Shown in pieces: positions 31,330-49,943 of a stretch of DNA of 64,000 nt. Below the pieces are notes generated by a model. That model was not told the origin of the DNA and searched no databases. It saw only the letters and a program-made list of their open reading frames with translations. Source of the stretch: Diaphorobacter caeni (GTDB lineage: Bacteria; Pseudomonadota; Gammaproteobacteria; Burkholderiales; Burkholderiaceae_C). How positions within the stretch are numbered: the stretch's first letter is position 1; the number at the start of each line of letters is the position of its first letter. Both the position numbers and the translations under genes were made by a program. The stretch covers positions 310,001 to 374,000 of the forward strand of contig NZ_JADKYZ010000003.1 in NCBI RefSeq assembly GCF_015354245.1, in the 5' to 3' direction.

Positions 31330-32247
31330 TCAGCATAGAAAGCCCGAGATCCCGTAAGTGATGCGTGCGATTTTGCCGTGGAGCTTGTTGTAGTAGAGAT
31401 GAATGTCACGGTCCATGTATGTTCCGAGGATGAACCCATCGAACTCGTCATCGCGCTGCTTGACGATCTCCATTCCGGTTGCGCAATGGGGGCAGTCGGT
31501 CCACTTCAGCCCCGCAGGCAACGCATGCTCCCAGCGCACGGCGTCCTGCTCCCGGTCGTTGTAGAACTTGTAGCCGACAATGACCTCATCTTCCACATAG
31601 ATGCTCAGTCCGCACACATCTGACAGATCGATCTTGTCGTCGCTCACCCTGTCATCTTCGTCGTCGTCTTCATCGCTATGGTAGATGCGGAGAATGTCAT
31701 TCCAAGCGGGGTGATCTTTCAACTGCTCCAGCCGCGCACCCAACGCGGCATTCAACTCCGAAAATTCAGGGACTTGAATATCTTCCGTAGGCGCTAACAA
31801 GACTGGCTTCAGTTCGATCCGGACTTCATCCAACACCTGGTCTTTAAAAACGAATGTGGTGTATCGATCCGACTGCCGGACTGCAATCAAGTTATCGAAG
31901 ACACAGGAATCAGCTGCTTGCGACTTCAATTTCTGATGCGCGGAAGGCAGCGTGTCCTCCCATGCCACAGAGAATGGCGGTGTGGATGTCGCTGCGGATT
32001 TCTTAGAAAAATGCAATGCACCGATCATTCCGGTGCCGATGATCCATGAAATCCGATCTTCCGAGACAAAGCGGTCTTTGTTGAACGCGGAGACCTCCAA
32101 TCCCAAGGACGGGATGATGATTTCGTCCGAATAATAGTTCTCTGCATCCAACTCAGACCAATCGGGGTTGAAGCCGAGATGATCCTCAAAAAATTTCTCG
32201 ACCTCGGGATCCCCGACATCGCGACCGAGCAAGCTTGTTGCGTCCAT
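31330..32247 (-). CDS. Uncharacterised protein downstream of the Rhs module
   Basis: 305 residues, acidic, no signal peptide. A very acidic stretch (HSDEDDDEDDRVSDDKIDLSD, about residue 190) and a C-terminal CPHC pair near residue 262 are the only striking features. No family recognised. It lies 10 bp after another small gene and at the end of the vgrG-rhs-immunity row on the same strand. Acidic cytosolic proteins in this position are often immunity proteins; that is inference from context. Confidence 0.55.
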   Translation of the reverse strand: MDATSLLGRDVGDPEVEKFFEDHLGFNPDWSELDAENYYSDEIIIPSLGLEVSAFNKDRFVSEDRISWIIGTGMIGALHFSKKSAATSTPPFSVAWEDTLPSAHQKLKSQAADSCVFDNLIAVRQSDRYTTFVFKDQVLDEVRIELKPVLLAPTEDIQVPEFSELNAALGARLEQLKDHPAWNDILRIYHSDEDDDEDDRVSDDKIDLSDVCGLSIYVEDEVIVGYKFYNDREQDAVRWEHALPAGLKWTDCPHCATGMEIVKQRDDEFDGFILGTYMDRDIHLYYNKLHGKIARITYGISGFLC

Positions 32248-32257
32248 AAGTCGACTC

Positions 32258-32743
32258 TCAATACTTGTTAGAGACGATCTGCACCCTCTTCAACTCACCT
32301 TCTTTGCCGTAGCTGTACACCACACGACAAGTCTCGTGGAACCACTGATCGTTGCGAACAACGCCACTGGATTCATAGCTTTTATCAGGAGCCTTTCCCA
32401 TGCTGGCCAGCACGTCCTTACGGGTCACGCCAGGAACGACATCGATCGGCAATTGAATAACCGGTTTACGTGTGTCCGTGTCTGACTCGACAGGAATCTC
32501 TGCACTGATCAGCAACATCGGCGCAGTTCCATATTTTTCGACCTCGCGTTTAGCGAGATAGTCCTCGTCCACGAAGTGAAGAATGATCTGGTAATCATCG
32601 CTGTTGAAATAAAAATCCGGGTCACTCCTTTTGGCTCGCGGCGCCTTATCGCTGCCGAGCGCGGAACAAAAATCGACCATCTGTGGCGCATTACCCGGTT
32701 GCCAAAGGTATTTTTTTGCAAATTCTTCAACTGTCAGCATCAT
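32258..32743 (-). CDS. Probable immunity protein for a displaced Rhs tip
   Basis: 161 residues, cytosolic, no family recognised. Its ATG follows the TAA of a truncated Lys-rich coding fragment without a gap (TAAATG), the tight spacing typical of a toxin 3' end and its immunity gene. GC content is lower than in the surrounding chromosome. If the fragment is a former Rhs toxin tip, this gene would be the orphan antidote. Evidence is positional only. Confidence 0.55.
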   Translation of the reverse strand: MMLTVEEFAKKYLWQPGNAPQMVDFCSALGSDKAPRAKRSDPDFYFNSDDYQIILHFVDEDYLAKREVEKYGTAPMLLISAEIPVESDTDTRKPVIQLPIDVVPGVTRKDVLASMGKAPDKSYESSGVVRNDQWFHETCRVVYSYGKEGELKRVQIVSNKY

Positions 32744-32871
32744 TTAAATATCATCCAGAATTTGATTCAAGAAATCGTCAAAACAATCCGGTTTGTCCTT
32801 GCTTCTCTTCTTGAGCTTCTTGGCAAGTTTTTTGTATTTCTTCGCGCATTCAGAATTCGTCCCCTTCAAAT
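32744..32871 (-). pseudogene. Truncated 3' end of a former toxin gene
   Basis: Reading up from TAA at 32746-32744, one frame stays open for about 42 codons to the edge of the IS remnant. It encodes SECAKKYKKLAKKLKKR and ends FDDFLNQILDDI. The Lys-rich motif followed by an acidic end looks like the last part of a nuclease-type toxin. The 5' part is gone, replaced by the IS element. The next gene starts at once after the stop. Most likely a displaced Rhs C-terminal tip. Confidence 0.5.
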
Positions 32872-33662
32872 GGCTCTGTTGCATAACCCCATCTGAGGTT
32901 GACGGCCTCATTGCGATGCGCGAACATCAACCCTTTGCGTAGCTTTGCGCTCTTGCGTGGCGGGATGATGGGGGTGGTTTGGCGCTGATGACAAGCCTCG
33001 TACACATCCTGCGTGTCATACGCTCCATCACCTGTGAAGCTGACAACCGCTTCATCGTTTGGTATTTGGGCCAGTAGTTCGGCAGCCACTGGTGAGTCGC
33101 CCACTTCGTTGGTGGTCACGACAATGGCACGAATCTGCAGCGTCTGTGCATCTATGCCCAGGTGCACCTTGCGCCACTGTCGGCGACGCTCTGCGCCGTG
33201 CTTCTTGGTTTTCCACTCATCTTCGCCCAAAAACTTGATGCCCGTAGAGTCAGCAAGCAAGTGCAGTCCGTGCGGCTTGGACGATAACGCACCTGAACAT
33301 TCAAACCCTTTTGCCTGCGGCACACCGTGCTGTAGTCAGGCGCTGACTAAGGCAGGCCAGCCATTCTCAGCAGCGACTGAATCAAGCCCAAGGCCTGGCG
33401 CAAAGGCAAACTGAACAGGCATTTGACGGTCAGGCAAAACTGGATGGCAGCATCCGAAAATGTCTTGTTGCGGCCAGGCTTGCCATCAGGAACGGCCTGC
33501 CATTGCATGTCCTTGTCCAGCCAGATGGTCAAATCACCCCGAGCCTTCAATGCTGCGTTGTACGCCTTCCAGTTTGTAGTGCGGTTGCGCCGCTTGCCCC
33601 AGCTCGATTCACTCATGCGGTAAGGCTACCGCAGATGACCGGTTGAGTTGTGCAACAACGCC
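32872..33662 (-). mobile_element. Decayed IS5-family element with broken transposase
   Basis: End repeats GGCTCTGTTGCATAAC (32872-32887) and the reverse complement at 33662-33647, GGCGTTGTTGCACAAC, agree at most positions. The transposase reads from 33616: KRRNRTTNWKAYNAALKARG, then a TAG after AGLP, a frameshift near 33290, then LLADSTGIKFLGEDEW, KVHLGIDAQTLQIRAIVVTT and FTGDGAYDTQDVYEA, which carry the DDE Asp residues. After FAHRNEAVN the 3' quarter is missing, including the catalytic Glu region. No target duplication is evident. Inactive; at least three lesions. Confidence 0.85.
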
Positions 33663-33696: not shown

Positions 33697-34530
33697 TTAA
33701 CCAACAACCGAGTCAAACTGTCCACCAAACCAAAAATTTACAGCATCCATATTAACACCATCCCCCCCCGTCCAAAAATCCACCGGATATGCCCAATCCG
33801 AACTATGCGTTTTACGAGGCTCTACATCTCCAAAAAATTCATTGATATAACAACACTGGCCCTTTGGCTGCAGAACTCCTATATAACCGAGCAAGTCAAT
33901 GAAAAATTTCGCTTGCTCCGCTGTAAGTTTCAATTCCTTAATTTTACGTATATCATTCACCAATGTCCGGGGAACGGTTTTGTCTGATGAGTTCTCAATC
34001 AATTTCAGAATCAACCCAAACAATCTCACGCCCTCATCAAAAATTCCCCCACCAACATCCTCAACATATCCCACCTTCTCTCTGTGCGTCGCAAGATAGA
34101 AGGCAGCCTTATCTCCCAAGGGATTGCTGCCCACAAGTGATCCGGAGAGTCGACATCTGTGAAGAAATGTCACATCGATTTTAGTCTCGACGTTTACCAA
34201 ACAAGTGGAACAGTTAGAAATGTCAGTAGCTTTTTTAATATACGCGTGTGACGGAAAATGCATTGCATAGGCATATGCAGATATGCCGCATCGCATTTGA
34301 GGGAAGCCCCCCCCAACACCGACCAAAAAGGCTTCTACAATTGCCTCCTTGGAAACATTAGCCCTCTCAAAAATCAGCCAATCGACGATTTCATTATGGG
34401 TCATCTTCTTGATTTGAGGAACCAGACCTACTTCACTCAATAATTTCCACTCATCACTCTCCTTAGAATATGGCTGTGTCGGAGAATAATTTTGCAACAC
34501 TTTGACAACACTTCGAGAAAATTGGCTCAT
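33697..34530 (-). CDS. Probable immunity protein for the Rhs toxin
   Basis: 277 residues from ATG 34530; an earlier ATG at 34545 would overlap the rhs stop by 7 bp. AT-rich compared with the rhs core. No family recognised; motifs such as AFLVGVGGGFPQMRCGISAYAYAMHFPSH and a Cys pair in DISNCSTCLVNVETKIDV are visible in short pieces only as unknown. Its place right after the rhs toxin tip is where the cognate immunity gene always lies in such modules. Confidence 0.65.
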   Translation of the reverse strand: MSQFSRSVVKVLQNYSPTQPYSKESDEWKLLSEVGLVPQIKKMTHNEIVDWLIFERANVSKEAIVEAFLVGVGGGFPQMRCGISAYAYAMHFPSHAYIKKATDISNCSTCLVNVETKIDVTFLHRCRLSGSLVGSNPLGDKAAFYLATHREKVGYVEDVGGGIFDEGVRLFGLILKLIENSSDKTVPRTLVNDIRKIKELKLTAEQAKFFIDLLGYIGVLQPKGQCCYINEFFGDVEPRKTHSSDWAYPVDFWTGGDGVNMDAVNFWFGGQFDSVVG

Positions 34531-34538
34531 AATATTTT

Positions 34539-37500
34539 CTAGCACCCATTCTTGGGCTGAAACGGTTTGGTTTCTATTGGCTTCAAGTCAGCAGCAGTGG
34601 CTGCACCTTTGGAGGTCAAATAGTCTTGCGCCGCCTGCATTCTTGTCTCCCCGGTTGTAGTTCGCAGCTTGGCGTCAGATATACCTTGATCAATGTTTCC
34701 CCGAACACTATCTCCGCCGCGCCCCAGGACACCTGTATTTCTGGTTCCATTATTTTCGATTCCTCGAACCGTGTCATGAGGGGTTCCCACGGGAGTTGTT
34801 CTATTTATAGAATCTCCATTACCAAATCTTGGCAAACCGTCGCCACCCACATTATTACCATGTCTTCGCATCACATCATTGAGCGTTTGGCTATCAGCCG
34901 CTCGCCCGTGATAATATATATTACCATTGGCATCCGTCAAATAATAATTCCAATCCCAACCAAGCGGATCAATATAAGCCAGTGGATTTGGTGAATATCC
35001 ATTCAGGTTAATACCCCCCATCAACCCAATTGGATCCGGGCAAATAAACCGCCCAATATCCGCATCGTAATACCGGAAGGTGTTGTAATGCAGCCCCGTT
35101 TCCCTGTCCAGGTATTGCCCCTGAAACCTCAGGTTCTGCTGACGCTCGTTTTCATCACTCGGGATATTTCCACGGTCCAACGCGTGTTCGCGCTGCCCCG
35201 CCAGTGTGGTGACCTCCCACTCCTCACTAACAGTTGAGCCCCAGGTCTTATAGCTGGCCTGCCATACCAGTTGTCCTTGGGCGTTCGACAACTCCTGAGG
35301 CATGCCGACCTGATCGGTGTGGAAGTAATACACCGCGCATGCCCCGACCGAATCGGATACTCCATTGGCGACTTTGAGTGCTGGTGCGGGCGAACGAGAA
35401 CCGCCTTCTGCCATGTCGCTGTTGGCGGCTTCCCGCCGCACGGGATGCGGGACACCATCGTCATCGCCACTGAACCGTTCCCGAGCCGCCACCGCCTGGG
35501 ATGCCTGTGCGCCGGGTGCTTCTGCATCTGCGGTTGTTCCAAGCCCCCCTTCATCCGTCGCATAGCCTTCCACATCCACACGCGCCATTGGCACATAGCT
35601 GCCAGGCTCATACACATAGCTGATGACACTCGCGCCCCGGCGTTCCTCGATCAGGCGCATGCCCTCCCAGATGAATTCGGTCGTGCCAAACGCATCTCGC
35701 TTTGCAATGCGTTTGCCGATGGCGTCATACTCGAAACGCGTCGTCTGACGCGTTTCATGCTCGGTACCGGGTCGGCGGATCGTGACGACCTCGGTGAGCT
35801 GATTCTCATCATTCCATTGAAAGTGCTGACGCGTGTGCCGGCCCGAGAGTTTGAGCGTCAGCCGACCGTGCCCGTCATAGAAGTAGCGTTTGTCTTCAAA
35901 CACGCGCACGAGGTTGTCACGGACGAATCCACGTTGAGGCGCCTGCGGGGCTGTGCTGCCAACAGGGCCAGGCGTGGGATCAAGAATGTTCCCCGCCGGG
36001 TCGTAATGGAAGCTCTCATTGGCGGCTTGCGCCAATGCGTTACCGACGCCGCCCAGCACCGCGCGGCGCGTCTGAAGGATACGCCCCGTGGCATCGTATT
36101 GATGGCCGGTATCACCGTGCAGGCTGTGGCGATTCGCGCACATTTCCCCCACCTTGTCGTAGCGCCACGCTTTGAGCAGGCCCTGGAGGTTGCGGGATTC
36201 TGGATGGCTTGCAGCGGCTGGCTGCTGGAGGGTGTCAAGCGCCTGCTGCCATTCCGCAGCACCAGGCTGTCCCAGTCCAAAGGGTTGGGTGACCAAGCTG
36301 GAGGAACGTGTCCATGCGCCGGTGAGTCTTCCTACAGGATCGTAGTCGTAGCGCGTCTGCGCCCTGCCCTGGGTACGCAGAACTTCCTGGTGAAGCTCGT
36401 CGCGCTCCATGTCGCAGATGGTTTGATGAATAGACGTTTGCTCATCATCGTCGGTCGATCCGTGCACCAGGTTGATTTGATGAAGATGGCCCGAACCGTA
36501 ATGAAGAAAATTCAGCGCACGCTGACTCGCGTGGCCAGGGACACTCGGCAATGCCGTCTGTGTGCGGTTACCTAACGGATCATGCTCATGGCGCAGCACA
36601 TGCGCCTTGCCGGTCGGGAGATCGGTTGCTGTCTCGGCGACCAAGTTGCCCATCACGTCGTACGCAAACGTGGATGCATGCAAAGGAATCAGCTCGTAGG
36701 CTGGTGATGCGACTGTATCCTCAGGCATCTCGCCAGCGAACTCTACCCGCAACTTGGTCGCAGAGAGCAGCCTGTCCATCGCATCATAGGCATAGCGATA
36801 GTGGTACTCCGCCGTACGCTTCTCCAATAGGCGCCCAACCGCATCGCGCACAAACTCCGTCTTACGGGCGGCATCCTTGGCGTTGTAACCACCAGAGCTA
36901 CGCCCGTCACCCCAACCTGCGATCTCGGGCGTCAGGCCGTTGGTTGAGGAGCTCTCCATGTCCACCAGCAAATCATCGCCCATTCCAGGGTGATGCACGA
37001 CCGTTACGGGCCAGCCGTTGACGTCGTAGTCAACGCAGACGCGCTGCCCTCCCACTCGCCGCTCCTCCACAAGGCGATCCCCGGCGTCATATTCAAAATG
37101 GAAACTCTCGCCGTTTTCATTCTGCAACGCGGCGAGACGGTGCGCCTCGTCGTAGGTGAGTTCTATTCGCCGCTTCTCGGCATCTTGCTTGGTGGTGAGT
37201 TGCCCACGCGTGTTGTGCGTCCACAAGGTACTTCGGTGATAAGGATCGGTGACACTACCTACCAGACCTGCAGAGGTGTAGTGGTATTGCCAGTGAGCAT
37301 CATCGGCAGTACGGGTTTGCAACACCTGGCCTAACGCATTGCGCGTGAGCTCTGTGGAGTGTCCTCTGGCATTGGTGATGCGCGCCAGTTGATCCCACTT
37401 GTCGTACTCGTAGGTCGTCGCGCTACCCGAACAATCCGTGTAGCTTGTGAGCTGGGCCAGACGGTTGTATTGATAACGCTTGTGCCCGCCCTTTGCGTCC

Positions 37501-39521: not shown

Positions 39522-39959
39522 TCAGGGTTTCAGCGACACACTGTTCATCAGGTTGTTCCACTGCAGTGTCTCCTTGTCCTCCCATAGTCCGCGAGACGTT
39601 CCCACGAAAATGAGAATCCGTTTCTCGTCGGGTAAGACGTACAAGTGCTTTTGATAGATGATGTTTCCACCATTCTTGAAGCGGACAAAAATCTCTATGC
39701 CGCTAAGCACTCCTCCCCCGGCCACCGGCACGGTTCGCGCCTTTTGCGGCTCCATTTCCTTGAACTTGTCCTGCCCAGCGATGACCTGCAACTGCTTCTT
39801 CACGACGCTGGCGAGGGTTTCGTTCTTTGGTAGTACGTCCCGGCTGACCACTAGGTTGAAACTGGGCAGGGAGCCCTCTCCCAACATCAGCGCATTCACC
39901 GTCTGATCCCGGAACGGGACGGGCAAATCGATTTCAAATTCCTGTGCTAGATACTTCAT
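39522..39959 (-). CDS. DUF1795 (DcrB/EagR-type) effector chaperone
   Basis: 145 residues with the DUF1795 fold pattern: FEIDLPVPFRDQTVNALML, SFNLVVSRDVLPKNETL and QKHLYVLPDEKRILIFVGTS. EagR proteins of this family shield the N-terminal membrane helices of prePAAR effectors and load them on VgrG. The adjoining effector begins with exactly such helices. The order vgrG-eagR-rhs is the standard one. Confidence 0.88.
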   Translation of the reverse strand: MKYLAQEFEIDLPVPFRDQTVNALMLGEGSLPSFNLVVSRDVLPKNETLASVVKKQLQVIAGQDKFKEMEPQKARTVPVAGGGVLSGIEIFVRFKNGGNIIYQKHLYVLPDEKRILIFVGTSRGLWEDKETLQWNNLMNSVSLKP

Positions 39960-40019: not shown

Positions 40020-42596
40020 TCATGCCTTGTCCGGGTTCAGATGGATCTCCGACCCGTGTTGCTGCAACACATTGGAAAAACTCAGCAGCCCGGTCTCACC
40101 CTCGGCCGTCACCTGTGTCTTCGCCTTGGTATGGACGTCGGCACCCATCGACTCGGTGTAGATCTTGTTTTGCGCCACGATGCTGATGGTTCCCGCCTCG
40201 CCATCCATCACGATCTTGGTTGCGCCGCATTCGAGCTCAATCCGTTTGGGTGCGGTGATACGTACGCCCTGGTCTATAGCCTGCACCAACACATTCAGCT
40301 TGCCTTCGACGTGCGCGTTCTCCGAGGTAGAAGTCAAGCTGGCCGAGTTTTGTGAAGTGAGGTTGATCGCACCTGACAAAGCGCTGTGCGCAATGTCGCC
40401 AGCCGTCACCGTAATGCCATGCCCCCCGGAGTCCACGTGTGTACTCATCCCTGCGCTGGCCAGCACCGTGGTTTGTCCCGCGCTGGTCATGGTCACATGG
40501 GCGCCCGAGTGAATTGAGGTGCTCTGGCCGCTGCTCATGACCACCGGCTTTGGCGTGATCATCGAATGCCCCTCCGGGCTCACGATGGATACGATGGGCT
40601 TATTGATGTCGCGGCTGTTGCTCAGCAGTTCCATCGATTGCGCGAGGGCCGGATTTCCGCTGTCGGGCACCGCGAGTTCCTGTCCGGTCGGCGCAGCCTG
40701 TGCCATCATCCCCAGTGCCTGAGCGGCCACGCTCGGGATGGCTGACGTCATCTTCTGCACGACCTGATCACGCCCTTGCTTCAAATTGCCGATGACGCCC
40801 TTCGCAGCCGCAACCGATGACTCCGCGTTCTGTTGCAGAGTCTGGGCTTGAGTGAGCACGGAATTCATCTGCTCATGCCCATCCGGGCTGTCGTGCGAAA
40901 TCTTCTGCTTGAAGTCCTGCGTGTACGTCGTGATCAGCAAGCCCTTGTCCGCGCGGATGGCCCCCCACTCATTGGTCCGCAATTCAAACCCATAACTGCG
41001 CTTGGCCTCCGAGCCCTGATTCAACAGGTAGCCCATGTGGAGGTGCGTATTGCCGTGGTCGCTCGACAGCTCCAGATGCTCGATGCCCTTCTGGTCTTCA
41101 AAGCGAAGCATGTTCTTGCCGCCGCCGCCCTTGCTCCAGTTGGTCTGCGTGCCCGATTGCGTCTTGTGCTTGGGCAGCTCCCACGGCGGCATCTGCAGCG
41201 CGTTGTACACACGCCCTGTGATGATCGGGTAGTCCGGGTCGCCGTTCAAAAAGTCGACGATCACTTCCTGGCCGATGCGAGGGATGTGCATGCCGCCGTA
41301 GTTGCTGCCCGCCCAGGTCTGGCTCACGCGGATCCAGCAGCTGGAGTTTTCGTCCATCGTGCCGTAGCGGTCCCAGTGGAACTGCACCTTCACGCGCCCG
41401 TATTTGTCGGTGTAGATCTCTTCGCCCGCCGGTCCGGTGACGACTGCAGTCTGTGGACCCGTGGTGTGCGGCTTCGGGGTCACGCGCTGGCTGCGGTACG
41501 GCACGCTCTTGGGCACCACGTTGAAGCTGATGCGGTACGTCGTCGGGCTGTCGATGCCCGCGCGCTTGGCGCTGCCCGAGCCGCCAGCGCCATCGCTGCG
41601 ACGCACGTTCTCTTCAAACCGGTAGTACGCCGATTCAATGAGGTATTCCTTGTTCTGGTCTTCACGCGGATAGCGCGTCAAGGAAAAAAGGTAACCAGGA
41701 GCAATATTTCGCGCATTGCCCTCACCTTGGGCTACTTCTCGTTGCGCCTTTTGCTGTTCGATTCGCACCCGCGCGTAGTTCTCGCCATCGCCGGTTTCGG
41801 TGTAACCACCGGGCCAGTCATAGAGCTCGCGGCTGTCTTCGGTGTGGCCTGCGGGCTGCTGCTGCTTGGTGTCCAGAATGGCCTTGGGCTTTTCGAAATC
41901 GTAATCGTCCGCCGCAAAATGGCCGCTGGCGATGTCTTCGGCAAAGCTCCAGCCGTCGATGAAGTCCTCATCGTGCACGTGCGCCGCGCGGTCGCCCGAG
42001 TAGTAGGTGATCGTGCTGGGGCCGCTGGGCAGCGGGCTGTGGCTACCGATGTCGTCGGCCAGCACCAGTTTGTGGCTGCCCTGGCTGTGTTCAAAATAGA
42101 AGTATCCGCCTTCAGATTCGAGCAGGCGAGCTACAAAATTGAAGTCCGTCTCGCCGTACTGGACCATGTAGTCCCAGGTGCGATAGCTGCCGGTGAGCTT
42201 GTCCTCGATGGTGAAACCATACGGGCCCAGCACTTCCTTGATGATGTCCGGCACCTTCTTGAACTGGAAGATCTTGAAGTCCGAGCGGCGCGTCGCATGC
42301 CATAGCCATGGCCTCAGCACGGCTTCGTAGCTATAGAAATCCCCATCGCGACCGATGTAGGTGAACTGCGTCACCTGCCCCGAGAGAAACCGCTTGCCCC
42401 CACCGCCGAGCTTGGTGGTCAGGTCCACCTCCACGCTCATGTCCTTTCCGAGAAGACTCTTGGCGGAGATCGATGCGCTCTGGCTGATCAGCCGGACGCG
42501 GTACTCGAAAAGGCGCGATATCTGCTCGCTTCCCTCCAGTGAACGGAACTCCAATTGCTCGCCCAATGGACTATGGGCAATGAAGGTGCGATTCAT
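40020..42596 (-). CDS. vgrG: Type VI secretion spike protein VgrG (TssI)
   Basis: 858 residues. gp27/gp44-like N-terminal domains (GEQLEFRSLEGSEQISRLFEY...) are followed by the gp5 OB and needle part (VTGPAGEEIYTDKYGRVKVQFHWDR; SCWIRVSQTWAGSNYGGMHIPRIGQEV in pieces), then a DUF2345 domain (about 640-800). No catalytic extension is evident after it, so this VgrG probably carries the Rhs/PAAR effector encoded downstream. It is divergent from tssB across 221 AT-rich base pairs. Confidence 0.95.
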   Translation of the reverse strand: MNRTFIAHSPLGEQLEFRSLEGSEQISRLFEYRVRLISQSASISAKSLLGKDMSVEVDLTTKLGGGGKRFLSGQVTQFTYIGRDGDFYSYEAVLRPWLWHATRRSDFKIFQFKKVPDIIKEVLGPYGFTIEDKLTGSYRTWDYMVQYGETDFNFVARLLESEGGYFYFEHSQGSHKLVLADDIGSHSPLPSGPSTITYYSGDRAAHVHDEDFIDGWSFAEDIASGHFAADDYDFEKPKAILDTKQQQPAGHTEDSRELYDWPGGYTETGDGENYARVRIEQQKAQREVAQGEGNARNIAPGYLFSLTRYPREDQNKEYLIESAYYRFEENVRRSDGAGGSGSAKRAGIDSPTTYRISFNVVPKSVPYRSQRVTPKPHTTGPQTAVVTGPAGEEIYTDKYGRVKVQFHWDRYGTMDENSSCWIRVSQTWAGSNYGGMHIPRIGQEVIVDFLNGDPDYPIITGRVYNALQMPPWELPKHKTQSGTQTNWSKGGGGKNMLRFEDQKGIEHLELSSDHGNTHLHMGYLLNQGSEAKRSYGFELRTNEWGAIRADKGLLITTYTQDFKQKISHDSPDGHEQMNSVLTQAQTLQQNAESSVAAAKGVIGNLKQGRDQVVQKMTSAIPSVAAQALGMMAQAAPTGQELAVPDSGNPALAQSMELLSNSRDINKPIVSIVSPEGHSMITPKPVVMSSGQSTSIHSGAHVTMTSAGQTTVLASAGMSTHVDSGGHGITVTAGDIAHSALSGAINLTSQNSASLTSTSENAHVEGKLNVLVQAIDQGVRITAPKRIELECGATKIVMDGEAGTISIVAQNKIYTESMGADVHTKAKTQVTAEGETGLLSFSNVLQQHGSEIHLNPDKA

Positions 42597-43433: not shown

Positions 43434-44936
43434 ATGGCAGTCACTGAAAAACAAGGCCTTGCGCAGTCAACAACGCTCGAAAGCGATGCGTTTGCCTCGC
43501 TGCTGAACAAGGAATTCAAACCCAAGACCGAGCAGGCTCAGGAAGCCGTCGTCTCCGCCGTGCGCACGCTGGCGGAGCAGGCACTGACCAACACCAACAT
43601 CATCTCCGCCGATGCCTACCGCACCGTCGAGGGCATGATCGCCGAGATCGACCGCAAGCTGTCGGAACAGGTGAACCTGATCATCCACCACGAGGACTTC
43701 CAGCGCCTGGAAGGCACCTGGCGCGGTCTGCACTATCTCGTGAACAACACCGAGACCGACGAGATGCTGAAGATCCAGATCTTCAACATCAACAAGAAGG
43801 ATCTGGGCCGCACGCTGCAGCGCCACAAGGGCATCCTGTGGGACCAGAGCCCCATCTTCAAGAAGGTCTACGAAGCGGAATACGGCCAGTTCGGCGGCGA
43901 GCCTTTCGGCTGCCTCGTGGGCGACTACCACTTCGACCACAACCCCCAGGACGTGGCGCTGCTCACCGAAATGTCGAAGATCGCGGCATCGGCACACTGC
44001 CCCTTCATCGCCGGTGCGGACTCCAGTCTGATGCAGATGGAGTCATGGCAGGAACTGGCCAATCCGCGCGATCTGACCAAGATTTTCGGCAACACCGAAT
44101 ACATCAAGTGGCGCGCACTGCGTGACTCGGACGACGCGCGTTATCTGGGTCTGACGATGCCGCGCTTCCTCTCGCGCCTGCCCTACAGCACGAAGGAAAA
44201 CCCGGTCGACGGCTTCGACTTCGAAGAAGACACCGCCGGCGCCAACCACAACAATTTCTGCTGGTCCAACTCCGCTTATGCGATGGCAACGAACATCAAC
44301 CGTTCGTTCAAGCTCTACGGCTGGTGCACATCGATCCGCGGCGTGGAGTCCGGCGGCATCGTGGAAGACCTGCCGGTGCACGTCTTCCCGAGCGACGACG
44401 GTGGCGTGGACATCAAGTGCCCCACCGAAATTGCGATCAGCGACCGCCGCGAAGCGGAACTCGCCAAGAACGGCCTGATGCCGCTCGTGTATCGCAAGAA
44501 CAGCGACGTGGCAGCCTTCATCGGCGCCCAGTCACTGCAAAAGCCTGCAGAGTATTACGACGCCGACGCGACGGCCAATGCCAATCTGTCCGCGCGCCTG
44601 CCGTACCTCTTCGCATGCTGCCGCTTTGCGCACTATCTCAAGTGCATCGTCCGCGACAAGATCGGCTCCTTCAAGGAGCGTGACGATGTGCAGCTTTGGT
44701 TGAACAACTGGATCATGAACTACGTCGATGGTGATCCAGGCAATTCTTCCGAATCCGTCAAGGCAATGAAACCTTTGGCAGCCGCCGAAGTCGTGGTTGA
44801 AGAAATTGAGGAGAACCCAGGCTACTACACGGCCAAGTTCTTCTTGCGTCCTCACTACCAACTCGAGGGCCTCACGGTTTCCTTGCGCCTGGTGTCCAAG
44901 CTGCCATCCGTGAAACAAGCGGCAGTGCAGCAGTAA
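43434..44936 (+). CDS. tssC: T6SS contractile sheath large subunit TssC
   Basis: 500 residues, normal length. Typical segments are FQRLEGTWRGLHYLVNNTET, KKVYEAEYGQFGGEPFG, WQELANPRDLTKIF and LGLTMPRFLSRLPYS. The C-terminus LEGLTVSLRLVSKLPS is the conserved end strand that interlocks with TssB. Forms the sheath together with TssB. Confidence 0.96.
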   Translation: MAVTEKQGLAQSTTLESDAFASLLNKEFKPKTEQAQEAVVSAVRTLAEQALTNTNIISADAYRTVEGMIAEIDRKLSEQVNLIIHHEDFQRLEGTWRGLHYLVNNTETDEMLKIQIFNINKKDLGRTLQRHKGILWDQSPIFKKVYEAEYGQFGGEPFGCLVGDYHFDHNPQDVALLTEMSKIAASAHCPFIAGADSSLMQMESWQELANPRDLTKIFGNTEYIKWRALRDSDDARYLGLTMPRFLSRLPYSTKENPVDGFDFEEDTAGANHNNFCWSNSAYAMATNINRSFKLYGWCTSIRGVESGGIVEDLPVHVFPSDDGGVDIKCPTEIAISDRREAELAKNGLMPLVYRKNSDVAAFIGAQSLQKPAEYYDADATANANLSARLPYLFACCRFAHYLKCIVRDKIGSFKERDDVQLWLNNWIMNYVDGDPGNSSESVKAMKPLAAAEVVVEEIEENPGYYTAKFFLRPHYQLEGLTVSLRLVSKLPSVKQAAVQQ

Positions 44937-44997
44937 TCAGAAGTCCCCTGTTGTCAGTTGAATTGATCATTAATCCCTGTTTATCTGGAGGAAAAAA

Positions 44998-45531
44998 ATG
45001 GCAGTGAATCGTTTGAACAGCCCCGTGGCCAACGTGTCGCCCGAGCAACGCGTCGGTGGCGTGGTCGATATCTATTGCAAGATCGATGGCGTTGACGGTG
45101 AATCCGAAGACTCCAAGCACAAGGGCTGGCTGCACGTCGAGTCCATCGCTGGTGGTGTGGCCAACGCGGGTGCATTTGCATACGGCGGCGGCGGCGGCTC
45201 CGGCAAGGCTCAATGGCAAGACCTGACCATCCGTGGTCGTTTTGACAAGTGCTTCGCTACGCTGATGAAGAAGTGCGCTTCGGGCGAACACATCGGCTCC
45301 GTGGAAATCTCTGCTTGCAAGGCCGGTGGCTCGCAGCAGGAATTCCTGAACATCAAGATGACCAACGTGCTCATCTCGTCCCTGAACCTGTCTGGCGCTG
45401 AGTCCACCGAACCCATGTTCGACTGCGGCTTCAACTTCCAGAAGATCAAGGTCGAAGGCAAGTCGCAGACCAACTCCGGCTCCATGGGCGGTGCAGTGGT
45501 CGCCGAGTGGGACCTCAAGGCCAACACCTGA
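44998..45531 (+). CDS. hcp: T6SS inner tube protein Hcp (TssD)
   Basis: 177 residues. VGGVVDIYCKIDGVDGESED, HKGWLHVESIAGG and a Gly-rich loop (YGGGGGSGKAQWQDLTIRG) match Hcp1-type tube proteins. TCTGGAGGAAAAAAA gives a very strong ribosome site, and a terminator follows directly, so high expression relative to neighbours is expected. No C-terminal toxin extension. Confidence 0.95.
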   Translation: MAVNRLNSPVANVSPEQRVGGVVDIYCKIDGVDGESEDSKHKGWLHVESIAGGVANAGAFAYGGGGGSGKAQWQDLTIRGRFDKCFATLMKKCASGEHIGSVEISACKAGGSQQEFLNIKMTNVLISSLNLSGAESTEPMFDCGFNFQKIKVEGKSQTNSGSMGGAVVAEWDLKANT

Positions 45532-45556
45532 TAGGTTCGCCTCGGGTTTCCAAGAG

Positions 45557-45580
45557 AGGGGCGCTTCGCCCCTTTTTTTT
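45557..45580 (+). terminator. Terminator after hcp
   Basis: AGGGGCG-CTT-CGCCCCT followed by eight T in all, 26 bp after the hcp stop and within the T6SS gene row. Partial read-through would set a high Hcp to TssE/F/G ratio. Confidence 0.85.
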
Positions 45581-45612
45581 CTTCCACCATTGCTCTCTTT
45601 TCATCGGAACAC

Positions 45613-46392
45613 ATGGCTGAACTCACATTGGCAGACAAGACGTCCCAGGTACAGGAAGCGATCCGCCAGAAACCTTCTGACGACAAGTTGCGCGTGCATC
45701 TGTTCCAGCTCTATGCGCAGGCCGGCAAGTGGCAGAAGGCGCTGGGTCAACTGCAGGTGGCTGCACAGCTCAACGAGACGCACAAGCTGCTCGCGCAGGC
45801 CTATCGCCTTGCCTTGCGCGCGGAGATGGTGCGCGCGGATGTGTTCGCCGGCACGCGCACGCCGCAGGTGCTCGGCAAGCCCGCCCAGTGGCTCGGCTTT
45901 CTGATCGAAGCGCTGCAGATGGATGCCAAGGGCCAGACCGAGCAAGCCGCCGAACTGCGCATTCAGGCGCTCGATGCCGCCGAAGCGGTTTCCGGCCGCA
46001 TCAATGAATCACATTTTGATTGGATCGCCGATGCCGACTCACGCCTCGGCCCGGTCCTAGAAGTTTTCGTGAACGGCGACTACTACTGGCTGCCGTTCGA
46101 GTCCGTCGTCGAAGTGAAGATCGACAAGCCGGAAGACCTGCGCGACCTGGTCTGGCTGCCCGCGCACGTGAAACTGGTCAATGAAGGCCTGCATCCCATG
46201 ATGCTGCCCGCGCGCTATCCCCTTGTCGAAGGCGTGGTGGAAGACGGCCACCTGCGCTCGCGCCTGACGAGCTGGAGCGAGACCTCCGTGGGCGATTTCA
46301 TCGGTCACGGCGTGAAAGTGTTTTCGACCAACGCGCGCGAGATGTCGCTGCTCGACATCCGCGAGATCCGACTGGATTCCAAGGCCGAATAA
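45613..46392 (+). CDS. tagJ: T6SS accessory protein TagJ (ImpE family)
   Basis: 259 residues. An N-terminal TPR-like region (KLRVHLFQLYAQAGKWQKAL, LQVAAQLNETHKLLAQAYR) precedes the ImpE/SciE C-terminal part with VFVNGDYYWLPFESVVEVKI and LPARYPLVEGVVEDG. In other species TagJ binds TssB and helps recruit the ClpV ATPase to the sheath. It lies just downstream of the hcp terminator. No clpV gene is in the window. Confidence 0.88.
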   Translation: MAELTLADKTSQVQEAIRQKPSDDKLRVHLFQLYAQAGKWQKALGQLQVAAQLNETHKLLAQAYRLALRAEMVRADVFAGTRTPQVLGKPAQWLGFLIEALQMDAKGQTEQAAELRIQALDAAEAVSGRINESHFDWIADADSRLGPVLEVFVNGDYYWLPFESVVEVKIDKPEDLRDLVWLPAHVKLVNEGLHPMMLPARYPLVEGVVEDGHLRSRLTSWSETSVGDFIGHGVKVFSTNAREMSLLDIREIRLDSKAE

Positions 46393-46447
46393 ACACCAAC
46401 CGCATCAGCATCAGCAACCGCAACCGTCATCGACCGCCGCAATCAGC

Positions 46448-46984
46448 ATGGACCGCTCAGACAGCAACGATCAACTCCACTACGGCACCGCAGACCGTCT
46501 GCTGCCAACGCTGCTGGACCGCCTGACGGACCATGCGCCGCAGCGTGACAAGGACGCGACGAGCGAGCGTCTGGTCACGCGCAAGCAGCTTCGCCAGATC
46601 ATTCTGCGTGACCTGTCCTGGCTGCTCAACGCGACGAATGCCGAGGCCGAGCTGATGCTTGAAGAATTCGCGGAAGCGCGCAATTCGACGCTGAACTACG
46701 GCCTGCCCGCGTTTTCCGGCAAGCGCATCTCCGATGTGAAACTCACCGATCTGGAGGCCGCGATCAAGAACACCATCCAGCTGTTCGAGCCTCGCGTGAT
46801 GCCCGCGACGCTGGTGGTCAACGCCAGCCTCGCGTCGGACGACGAGGCCGCGCACAACATGGTGGTGTTCGAGATCCGTGGCCAGATCTGGGCGCAACCC
46901 TACCCCATCGAGATGCTGCTCAAATCCAGCATCGATCTGGAGACCGGCTCCGTCACCCTGCACGACCAGATGGGGGACAACTGA
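46448..46984 (+). CDS. tssE: T6SS baseplate protein TssE (gp25-like)
   Basis: 178 residues. Typical TssE/gp25 segments include LLPTLLDRLTD, LRQIILRDLSWLLNATN, STLNYGLPAFSG and ENTI-like IKNTIQLFEPRVMP. It is a baseplate wedge part homologous to phage T4 gp25. Its stop TGA and the tssF start ATG share one base. Confidence 0.94.
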   Translation: MDRSDSNDQLHYGTADRLLPTLLDRLTDHAPQRDKDATSERLVTRKQLRQIILRDLSWLLNATNAEAELMLEEFAEARNSTLNYGLPAFSGKRISDVKLTDLEAAIKNTIQLFEPRVMPATLVVNASLASDDEAAHNMVVFEIRGQIWAQPYPIEMLLKSSIDLETGSVTLHDQMGDN

Positions 46985-48855
46985 TGGACCCGCGACTGCT
47001 GGACTACTACAACCGCGAGCTCGCCTACATCCGGGAGATGGGGCAGGAATTCGCGCAGGAGCACCCCAAGATCGCCGGGCGTCTGGGCATGAAGGGGCTC
47101 GAGGTGGCGGACCCCTATGTGGAGCGTCTGCTCGAAGGTTTCGCGCTGCTGGCCGGCCGCATCCAGCTCAAGATGGACGCGGAGTTTCCGCGCTTCTCGC
47201 AGCGCCTGTTGGAGCTGATCTATCCGCACTACCTCTCGCCCACGCCCGCCATGGGCATCGTGCGGCTGCACCCGAGCGAGACGGAGGGCGGCCTCACCGG
47301 TGCGTTCAAGGTGCCACGCCTCACCGTGCTGCGTGCGCCGATTTCTCCCGGTCAGGTGACCGCCTGCCAGTTCCGCACTGCACACGACGTGGAGCTGTTG
47401 CCGGTGGGCGTCAAGCAGGCATGGGTCGAGGGTCTGGCCACCGACGTGCGCATCCCCGCCAACCAGAAGAAGGTCGCCAGCAGCCTGCACCTGGTGCTGG
47501 AGACCAGCGGTGACAAGGAATTCCGCACCATCGATTTTGACGAACTGCCCGTCTACATCGCCGGGCCGTTCGACCGCGCGCTGCTGCTGCTCGAGCTGAT
47601 CTGCGGGCGGCTTGTGGGCGGTGCGCTCAAGTGGCGCGACGAGGCGGGCAACGATCACCAGTCCTGGCTCGCGGCCGATCAGGTCAGCGGCATGGGCTTC
47701 GAAAACGACGAGGCGCTGATCCCGTACGGCGAGCAGAGCTTCAGCGGCTATCGCCTGCTGCACGAGTACTTCGCCTGCCCGGACCGCTACCGGTTCTTCA
47801 AGATCAAGCGGCTGCGGCAGATTCTCAAGACCGTGCGCGCGACGCGCATCGAGTTCGTGCTGCACTTCGACCGCGCTGCCACCGAGCTCGAAAAAGTGGT
47901 CTCCGACAGCCACTTCCACCTGTTCTGCACGCCCGTCATCAACCTCTTTCCAAAGAAGGGCGACCGCATCGACGTGTCGCTCGCGCACTTCGAGCACCAT
48001 CTGCTTGGCGACCGCACGCGCCCGCTGGACTACGAGATCTACTCGGTCGGTTCGATCCATGGCTACGCCGCCAACAACACCGACGTGCAGACCTTTCTGC
48101 CGATCTACGAAACGCTGGGTGCGCAGGAAAGCTCGCATTCGCAGGCCTATTTCTCGCTGCGCCGCGAGCCGCGCAAACTCTCCGAAGTCGCCAAGCGCAA
48201 TGGCCCGCGCACCGGCTACATCGGCAGCGAAGTGTTCGCGCAGCTCGTCGATCGCCAGGACGCGCCCTACCCACACACGCTCAGCCGTATCGCGCCCGAC
48301 ATGCTGTGCACGAACCGCGATCTGTCGCTGCTCATCACCTCGGCGGGGGAGCGCAACTTCCAGCTGGCGGTGTCCGCGCCGGTGCAGCGCGTGGAGCTGG
48401 TGACCACGCTCACCCGCCCCGCCGCGTCGATCGCCGAGCGCAAGACGACCTGGCGATTGCTCAGCCATCTTCAGCTCAACTACCAGACGCTCACCGACTC
48501 CACCCCCACCGAGGGCGCGAAGGTCATGCGCGAGCTGCTCAATCTCTACGCGCAGCTCAGCCGTCCCGACACGGCGCAGCAGGCCGATGCGGTGGCCTCC
48601 GTCAGCCTCACGCCGATGTTCGCGCGCGTGCGCCAACCCGGTCCCATCGTCTATGGGCGCGGCGTCGACATCCACCTCACGGTGGATCAAGCCAAGTTCG
48701 GCGGCAGCAGCTCGTGGCTGTTCGGCGCGGTGCTTGAGCGCTTTTTCGCGCGCCATGTCGGCATCAACTCCGCCACGCGATTGAAGATGAGCACGCTGCA
48801 GAACGGACCCTTTGCCGAATGGGCCACGCGCCAGGGCATGCGCCCGACGGCGTGA
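46984..48855 (+). CDS. tssF: T6SS baseplate protein TssF
   Basis: 623 residues with the TssF (ImpG/VasA) N-terminus LLDYYNRELAYIREMGQEFA and the downstream EVADPYVERLLEGFALLAGR. It forms baseplate wedges with TssG, TssE and TssK. The start shares one base with the tssE stop, showing coupling. The C-terminus overlaps only non-conserved upstream codons of tssG. Confidence 0.95.
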   Translation: MDPRLLDYYNRELAYIREMGQEFAQEHPKIAGRLGMKGLEVADPYVERLLEGFALLAGRIQLKMDAEFPRFSQRLLELIYPHYLSPTPAMGIVRLHPSETEGGLTGAFKVPRLTVLRAPISPGQVTACQFRTAHDVELLPVGVKQAWVEGLATDVRIPANQKKVASSLHLVLETSGDKEFRTIDFDELPVYIAGPFDRALLLLELICGRLVGGALKWRDEAGNDHQSWLAADQVSGMGFENDEALIPYGEQSFSGYRLLHEYFACPDRYRFFKIKRLRQILKTVRATRIEFVLHFDRAATELEKVVSDSHFHLFCTPVINLFPKKGDRIDVSLAHFEHHLLGDRTRPLDYEIYSVGSIHGYAANNTDVQTFLPIYETLGAQESSHSQAYFSLRREPRKLSEVAKRNGPRTGYIGSEVFAQLVDRQDAPYPHTLSRIAPDMLCTNRDLSLLITSAGERNFQLAVSAPVQRVELVTTLTRPAASIAERKTTWRLLSHLQLNYQTLTDSTPTEGAKVMRELLNLYAQLSRPDTAQQADAVASVSLTPMFARVRQPGPIVYGRGVDIHLTVDQAKFGGSSSWLFGAVLERFFARHVGINSATRLKMSTLQNGPFAEWATRQGMRPTA

Positions 48856-48869
48856 CGCAGAGAGCCGCC

Positions 48870-49943
48870 ATGGAAAGCTCCGCAACCCATTTCCCGCACC
48901 CTTCCGGGAACGCATCGTCCGCAAGCGCTCTCTCGCAGCTCGTGCGCACCACCCTGCCGCAGACCGAGGCCATCGATTTGTTCGCGCTGCTGCGCCATCT
49001 GGATGCCGCCTCTCCGTCGGCGCGCCTTGGCGCATCGCAAACCCCGCGCGAAGACGTGGTGCGGCTTGGCCAGCAACCGTCCACGGTGTTTGCGCCTTCC
49101 ACGCTCTACAGCGTGCAGCCCACCGGCCATGGCGGGAGACCGCTGGTGCGCATTTTCAGCTTCGGCGTCTTTGGCCCCAACGGCGCGCTGCCGATCCACC
49201 TGACCGAGTACGTGCGCGAGCGGCTGCACAACCACGGCGATCCCGCGCCTGCGGATTTCGTCGATCTGTTCCACCACCGCTTCATCAGTCTGTTCTACCG
49301 CGCCTGGGCCGACGCGCAGTCCGTCGTGCAGCTCGACCGCCCCGGCGTCGACAAATTCAGCTTCTATGCGGGCGCGCTGGTCGGGCTCGGCTTTGAAAAC
49401 AGCTGGCAGCGTGACTCCATCGAAGACAGCGCCAAGCTCTACGCCGCCGGGCATCTCGCGCGCCTCACGCGCAACCCCGAAGGACTTGAAAAGCTCATCG
49501 GCCACTACTTCGGCACCCAGGCCGCGATCACCGAGTTTCTCAAGAGCTGGATTCACATCGACGTGGCCGATCAGACCCGCCTTGGCGGTATGGGCCAGAA
49601 CAACCAGCTTGGCGTAAGCGCCATCGCGGGCAGCCGCCTGCAGGACGTGCAGGCCAAGTTCCGCATCACGCTCGGCCCCATGGAACTGCGCAAGTACGAG
49701 AGCTTTCTGCCGCCCGAGGCCAACAACCGCAAGCTGCGCGACTGGGTGCGCAACTACATCGGCATCGAGATGGATTGGGACGTGGAACTGCAACTGCGTG
49801 CCGACGAAGTGCCGCGCACGTCGCTCGGCGGTGGCTCGCGCCTTGGCTGGACCACCTGGATGGGCAAGCGCGCAAGCGACGCACCCGCCAATGACCTGCG
49901 CCTCGACCCCGAACGCGACTCAAGGCGACTGAAGGCGGGCTGA
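48870..49943 (+). CDS. tssG: T6SS baseplate protein TssG
   Basis: 357 residues from ATG 48870; an in-frame ATG at 48819 inside tssF would add 17 unconserved residues. TssG (ImpH/VasB) segments are IDLFALLRHLDAASPSARLG, VQPTGHGGRPLVRIFSFG and FFGxxG-like VFGPNGALPIHLTEYVRERL. Partner of TssF. It is the last T6SS gene of the row: the next gene is an unrelated cupin, whereas clpV commonly follows here. Confidence 0.94.
   Translation: MESSATHFPHPSGNASSASALSQLVRTTLPQTEAIDLFALLRHLDAASPSARLGASQTPREDVVRLGQQPSTVFAPSTLYSVQPTGHGGRPLVRIFSFGVFGPNGALPIHLTEYVRERLHNHGDPAPADFVDLFHHRFISLFYRAWADAQSVVQLDRPGVDKFSFYAGALVGLGFENSWQRDSIEDSAKLYAAGHLARLTRNPEGLEKLIGHYFGTQAAITEFLKSWIHIDVADQTRLGGMGQNNQLGVSAIAGSRLQDVQAKFRITLGPMELRKYESFLPPEANNRKLRDWVRNYIGIEMDWDVELQLRADEVPRTSLGGGSRLGWTTWMGKRASDAPANDLRLDPERDSRRLKAG

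Follow-up and report, generated by a model that had tools for sequence, protein, structure and literature searches.

A probable divergent GIY-YIG-fold nuclease tip and a putative immunity gene in a PAAR-Rhs effector operon of Diaphorobacter caeni

The last 138 residues of a PAAR-Rhs effector encoded in a 64,000-nucleotide stretch of Diaphorobacter caeni DNA (the window) pose two questions: which kind of toxin the tip represents, and whether the adjoining gene encodes the matching immunity protein. A first-pass annotation made from the letters alone had read the tip as a DNA- or RNA-cutting toxin with motifs recalling GIY-YIG nucleases. The analysis of relatives, profiles and predicted structures gives a probability of about 0.7 to the reading that the tip is an interbacterial toxin delivered by the T6SS and adopts a divergent form of the GIY-YIG (URI-type) nuclease fold; the adjoining gene would then provide immunity to it. 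Tip residues are numbered from the Gly of DPLGW (G1), the tip proper starting at D3; feature coordinates are collected in Table 1.

The effector is composed of an N-terminal hydrophobic region, PAAR, DUF6531, RHS/YD repeats, an Rhs core, DPLGW and the tip, with Pfam and NCBIfam scores of 1.2e-8 (PAAR_motif), 1.1e-51 (RHS_repeat) and 4.3e-23 (Rhs_assc_core). Since PAAR, RHS repeats and an Rhs core ending in DPxGW are all present, the protein is assigned to the PAAR-Rhs class. The prePAAR model reaches just 9 bits on it against a cut-off of 25, and a DcrB-family gene, which we take to fill the role of an Eag-type chaperone, is present alongside. This gene and vgrG are located upstream on the same strand as the effector, and vgrG and the further T6SS genes are linked to it; the arrangement vgrG-eag-rhs-immunity is an ordinary T6SS effector operon. 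The ATG of the putative immunity gene lies 8 bases past the toxin stop codon, and an in-frame GTG is found at 34545, a start at which would overlap the toxin. Its product has no Pfam or NCBIfam family; judging from its position and its homologues, the gene most likely protects its owner. Beyond it, a DDE transposase split into the parts 32850-33323 and 33347-33616 (32850-33616 overall, minus strand) stands before two minus-strand frames (31330-32247 and 32258-32743) that have no Pfam match at E up to 0.1 and a G+C of 0.525 and 0.496, respectively, against 0.62 for the window; these are perhaps further immunity genes.

Table 1. Features of the effector locus in window coordinates, and immunity homologues in other genomes in their own numbering
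Feature	Position	Strand	Basis
PAAR-Rhs effector, 1645 aa	34539..39476	-	Pfam and NCBIfam
C-terminal toxin tip (138 aa following DPLGW, then stop), probably a nuclease domain of divergent GIY-YIG fold	34539..34955	-	ORF translation, two relatives, predicted fold, structure matches
GIY-YIG-like hairpin NYYLTDANGNIYYHGR, residues 5-20	34902..34949	-	sequence; predicted strands 2-9 and 15-22
VRGIEN, residues 65-70, with E69	34752..34769	-	sequence; predicted helix 62-76
Putative cognate immunity gene, 277 aa, SSDWAYPVDFWTGGDGVN near its end	33697..34530	-	position; homologues beside both related tips
DcrB-family gene, presumed Eag-type chaperone	39522..39959	-	PF08786 3.8e-18
vgrG (T6SS spike), apparent operon head	40020..42596	-	Phage_GPD 6.3e-94, T6SS_Vgr 6.4e-25
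T6SS genes: sheath VipB, Hcp, ImpE, gp25-type, TssF, TssG	43434..49943	+	Pfam
Immunity homologue L061	1498-2316	+	E 8.4e-39
Immunity homologue L062	1465-2340	-	E 1.3e-11

The description of the tip given in the first-pass annotation largely holds in the translation. The effector frame ends exactly 138 residues after DPLGW, and both NYYLTDANGNIYYHGR and VRGIEN are present, with the Gly/Asn-rich part GNNVGGDGLPRFGNGD between them. The distance of about 45 residues to VRGIEN is borne out by the 44 residues between R20 and V65, whereas the gap between Leu8 and Tyr17, given as nine residues, is actually 8. According to PMC1564403, the GIY-YIG domain is marked by two short motifs followed by an Arg and then a Glu. 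As a reference, 31 GIY-YIG domains were used, a narrow set consisting of the 30 best Pfam hits from one bacterial family and the UvrC-like hit of the window's genome. In the half-motifs YYL and YHG, Y7 and Y17 are 10 apart, a distance shared by 24 of the 31 references, and the two half-motifs occupy two neighbouring predicted strands; the Gly of 'GIY' is absent from the tip and likewise from 30 of the 31 references. E69 is the sole Glu within tip residues 1-100. A search for the ordered chain Y.[ILV] - Y.G - R - E - N, which was composed after the tip had been seen, gave a single occurrence across 23 other window frames (12,318 residues), and 148 of 20,000 shuffled versions of the tip contained it; the motif by itself is therefore just moderately unusual. 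It is raised above chance by the invariance of its key residues in two relatives, and the structure comparison leans likewise.

The closer relative is a tip of Variovorax sp. EL159 (72% identical), one of 46 candidate stretches from a genome-collection scan that picks up close relatives only; the third member, from a genome of the same order (G917), is the more distant, at 47-48% identity. Invariant in all three are Y6, L8, Y16, Y17, H18, G19, R20, R32, R33, H34, E69, R87, G88 and N89, among others. VRGIEN as a string is not invariant, as the third member has AQGVEG, in which E69 is kept and R66 is replaced by Gln; E69 is shared by 3/3 tips, lies within a predicted helix and matches the Glu found in the C-terminal part of GIY-YIG domains. 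N89 is likewise invariant (3/3), in a stretch modelled at pLDDT under 50. Tyr and Asn residues of this kind are Y17 and N90 in I-TevI and Y29 and N88 in UvrC (PMC2630997), and the C-terminal Asn is described as absent or replaced in some GIY-YIG families (PMC1564403).

A homologue of the putative immunity gene is found beside both related tips (36% identical in Variovorax and 27% in G917), so that tip and neighbour occur together in 3/3 cases. The Rhs cores are 55% (Variovorax sp. EL159) and about 29% (G917; last 504 core residues compared) identical to that of the window; because the homologous neighbour is kept while the cores are more divergent, tip and immunity gene appear to travel as a module. 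Furthermore, G+C falls from 0.58 in the core to 0.48 in the tip and 0.43 in the neighbour, with the same trend in both relatives. This fall and the joint conservation fit a tip-plus-immunity cassette that moved between carriers. Since the tips are 72% and 47% identical and the immunity proteins only 36% and 27%, evolution seems to be faster in the inhibitor than in the toxin.

The tip family looks rare. Wider genome sets, partly overlapping, comprised 369 genomes of the class, 399 of the family, 398 of the phylum and 116 of the third member's family, and G917 was the only relative accepted from them, Variovorax sp. EL159 from the genome-collection scan being the other one accepted; the 399 of the family gave no strong match beyond the window's own genome. 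In the phylum search, rows at E up to 1 came from 79 of the 398 genomes, a strong match beyond the window's genome was obtained in one (G917), and rows other than the best of these two genomes stood at E 0.012 or worse. Two further candidates were judged to be chance matches, L004 (32% identity, E 6.2e-4) being a small non-Rhs frame and L052 (E 1.8e-4) having a stop within the match. Searches of plasmids, phages and viral contigs gave no tip relative, and 8 plasmid records at E 3-5 were likewise attributed to chance. Among the titles and passages listed in literature searches, none deals with the tip family, which does not prove that it has never been described. A search of 299 genomes added, to the two carriers already known, 2 with a homologue of the immunity protein; neither L061 nor L062 has an Rhs tip within the roughly 3.8 kb examined, and the search yielded these two apparent orphan immunity genes and no further tips.

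The profile search proposed in the first-pass annotation does not support a GIY-YIG assignment, as no GIY-YIG or toxin model recognises the tip. Nothing usable came from Pfam and NCBIfam, run with the three tips and the genes beside them, or from PHROGs and PADLOC, run with the tip and neighbour of the window; sub-threshold rows of a lasso-peptide model on the Variovorax tip and of DUF7241 on the third tip were considered chance. With E allowed up to 10, the GIY-YIG model PF01541 picks up other genes in the three genomes and leaves the tip undetected in every one. This model is a detection aid and not a defining trait, and its silence leaves membership in the superfamily unproven. PDB sequence searches gave, in one case, a single aminotransferase row (E 0.45) and, in another, nine rows led by ribosomal L14 (E 0.065), none of them convincing. 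When the three tips were aligned as a profile to the 31 reference domains, 17 hairpin columns were matched with a score equalled by 1 of 300 column shuffles, at an hhalign probability of only 7%. Scored singly against the GIY-YIG profile among 170 segments, the tips came 17th, 19th and 23rd and were not separated from decoys. With this ranking, the miss by PF01541 and the 7% of hhalign, sequence alone does not prove a GIY-YIG relation, and the case rests on the invariant residues and the predicted structure.

The segments that outrank the tips against the GIY-YIG profile include several from Rhs cores as well as unrelated window proteins, and the former favour the principal rival explanation, in which the tip has an alpha+beta toxin fold of a different, undescribed type and may or may not be a nuclease. 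The hairpin likeness would then be due to the YD-type hairpins abundant in Rhs proteins (compare LSNAQGQLVWQASY in the same Rhs core), and the GIY-YIG-like AlphaFold2 model would have been built from too little data. Structure prediction, to which the first-pass annotation had tied its claim, gave a GIY-YIG-like order of elements in two models, although the mean pLDDT is just 55 (2 sequences) and 59 (3 sequences) and falls below 50 in tip residues 80-100. In both runs the first two strands (about 2-9 and 15-22) are followed by a helix that begins at 27, a third strand (51-54) and a second helix beginning at 62. VIA-align of the 3-sequence model, with 364 chains aligned, put first I-TevI at Z 5.0 (80 residues, 3.6 A), UvrC of Bacillus caldotenax at 4.7, UvrC of Thermotoga maritima at 4.3 and the N-terminal domain of a plant Grx, presumably GIY-YIG-like, at 4.2, the next row being at 2.3. 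A Z of 5 by itself is low, and identity over the aligned residues is 13-16%. With the 2-sequence model, I-TevI was again at the top (Z 3.4), effectively tied with unrelated chains such as AcrIF9 (3.2) and one from a herpesvirus tegument/capsid (3.0); I-TevI, UvrC or Slx1 account for 6 of 27 rows, Slx1 being a GIY-YIG protein (PMC1564403).

In BFVD, which holds models of viral proteins, the 3-sequence model produced 303 matches (best E 0.012, probability 0.89). Names of GIY-YIG, homing or intron endonucleases stand on 20 of the best 30, the remaining ten being nameless or uncharacterised; among the best 50, 23 are so named, 24 are nameless or uncharacterised and 3 carry other domain names. For the 2-sequence model, 13 of the best 50 matches are so named, in addition to one SegD-like match, and the top row is nameless. 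In a Foldseek search of the PDB every E was 1 or higher, with UvrC second (E 1.3) behind an unrelated carboxykinase. This non-significant result, the low pLDDT and the missing profile match would suit an undescribed fold. Nevertheless, the VIA-align matches extend well beyond the hairpin, covering 70-80 aligned residues (ranges within 2-94) with the E69 helix included; two structure libraries, the PDB chains of VIA-align and BFVD, indicate a GIY-YIG fold; and the hairpin residues are invariant in the tip though the Rhs cores drop to about 29% identity. An undescribed fold is hence considered unlikely, and the models make a GIY-YIG fold of the tip probable; its membership of the GIY-YIG superfamily, as a divergent new family, is likely.

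Far less probable still is an H-Y-E-type ADP-ribosyltransferase tip. YYHGR and the following helix (TLNDVMRRHG) would then form the 'YHGT' box, with E69 as the catalytic Glu. A YHG followed by a helix does resemble the diphtheria-toxin-group ADP-ribosyltransferases, but the three tips matched no such model in Pfam or NCBIfam, the predicted strand-strand-helix-strand-helix order suits GIY-YIG better, and no ADP-ribosyltransferase is named among the VIA-align and Foldseek matches listed, a result that concerns the names and not the fold itself.

Within the GIY-YIG reading, the position of the Arg deserves separate attention. In GIY-YIG domains this Arg sits centrally, in the first helix, and mostly at YxG+8. 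The Arg named in the first-pass annotation may be R20 (in YHGR), R32 or R33. Arg at YxG+8 is found in 31/31 reference domains and His at YxG+12 in 30/31, against 0/3 tips in both cases; all three tips instead have Arg at YxG+1, +13 and +14 and His at +15. The loop before the first helix may be about five residues longer with R32/R33 active, R20 may serve, or the residue may have moved. For some members of the R.Hpy188I family, the presumed catalytic Arg is reported at a non-homologous place (PMC2630997). In the overall balance, the element order, the best VIA-align matches and the invariant Tyr, Glu and Asn speak for GIY-YIG, while the low-confidence models, the absence of a profile match and the missing YxG+8 Arg speak against it. 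A wider proposal is tentative and is given somewhat less than even odds: a separate, sparse clade of GIY-YIG toxins with the catalytic Arg moved to R20 or R32/R33, accompanied by an immunity family that is without a Pfam or NCBIfam entry and also occurs as apparent orphans in other Pseudomonadota.

For a divergent GIY-YIG toxin, we infer each of delivery, release, metal, substrate, cutting and immunity as follows. The cocoon would be brought into a neighbouring cell by VgrG together with the PAAR end of the effector, and the tip would be freed after DPLGW. A divalent metal would be bound by E69. Helped by the tyrosines Y6 and Y17 (or Y16) and by one invariant Arg, which would replace the usual YxG+8 Arg and be either R20 beside YHG or, in the first helix, R32 or R33, the tip would cut phosphodiester bonds of nucleic acid, most likely DNA, and the product of the adjoining gene would act as the matching immunity protein. 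DNA is taken as the likelier substrate because TkeA, the nearest characterised effector, degrades DNA (PMC12302616); it is not to be assumed, as the GIY-YIG tip of another toxin class is labelled an endoribonuclease (PMC7073777).

T6SS/Rhs effectors with GIY-YIG tips are already established in the form of Tox-URI1, TkeA, Nte4 and the Salmonella candidates. Tox-URI1 (Zhang et al. 2012, PMC3482391) is described as a tip of RHS proteins with an adjoining immunity gene, and its signature (Y, YxG, R, [RK]xxE, N) is complete and in order in 2/3 tips here. The third tip, in contrast, has QxxE, the tip is missed by the Pfam GIY-YIG model and the neighbour is without a Pfam or NCBIfam family; because one of three members misses the signature, the tip is not filed as Tox-URI1. 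TkeA, as described in PMC12302616, is a T6SS effector of a vgrG cluster, with an Rhs protein annotated with a GIY-YIG domain, a downstream immunity gene and DNase activity in vitro; it is likened to the present system by this description, though it was annotated via a motif search whereas the tip here is annotated by none. The inactive TkeA mutant D186A changes an Asp and is therefore no test of the Glu (PMC12302616). Similarly, Nte4 of Neisseria cinerea (PMC8263058) and the Salmonella PAAR-RhsA-GIY-YIG candidates (PMC10469887, PMC11669294) resemble the effector by description, being a predicted T6SS effector and predicted PAAR-Rhs T6SS effectors with GIY-YIG domains, respectively; unlike the present tip, they are caught by standard domain models (cd00719, IPR000305). 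A gene of the GIY-YIG family downstream of vgrG is also described in a Janthinobacterium (PMC8356804).

Outside the effectors, the catalytic domains of I-TevI and UvrC, the best VIA-align matches, show the two Tyr, the Glu and the Asn in the order of the tip, but the tip is without their Arg at YxG+8 (a UvrC-like domain being among the references). The R.Hpy188I family comprises GIY-YIG nucleases with a presumed catalytic Arg displaced in some members; these are restriction enzymes, and R.Hpy188I itself carries Lys in place of the YIG Tyr that the tip retains (PMC2630997).

What is probably novel here is a divergent tip family of an established kind together with an immunity family outside Pfam and NCBIfam. 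If the assignment is true, it adds a family missed by standard models and, because such models would miss it, the number of GIY-YIG toxins among Rhs tips whose function is unknown is probably underestimated. It would also offer a natural test of how far the GIY-YIG active site tolerates a relocated Arg. The immunity family is a second unannotated family, which could mark the presence of the toxin.

The genome carries other Rhs tips as well. On contig C34, at about 174-181 kb, three Rhs-core matches with differing tips (L054, L056 and L057) are clustered, two of their frames being short (267 and 255 aa) and one 1593 aa long, a layout suggestive of orphan tips displaced beside a full Rhs gene; the 267- and 255-aa frames hold TWHHG and KLHHHLP, which we take to be HNH-like strings. 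Elsewhere, the tip of L058 (C3) contains GHELGHATG, presumably a zinc-protease-like HExxH string, and that of L053 (C30) contains VHEKQH.
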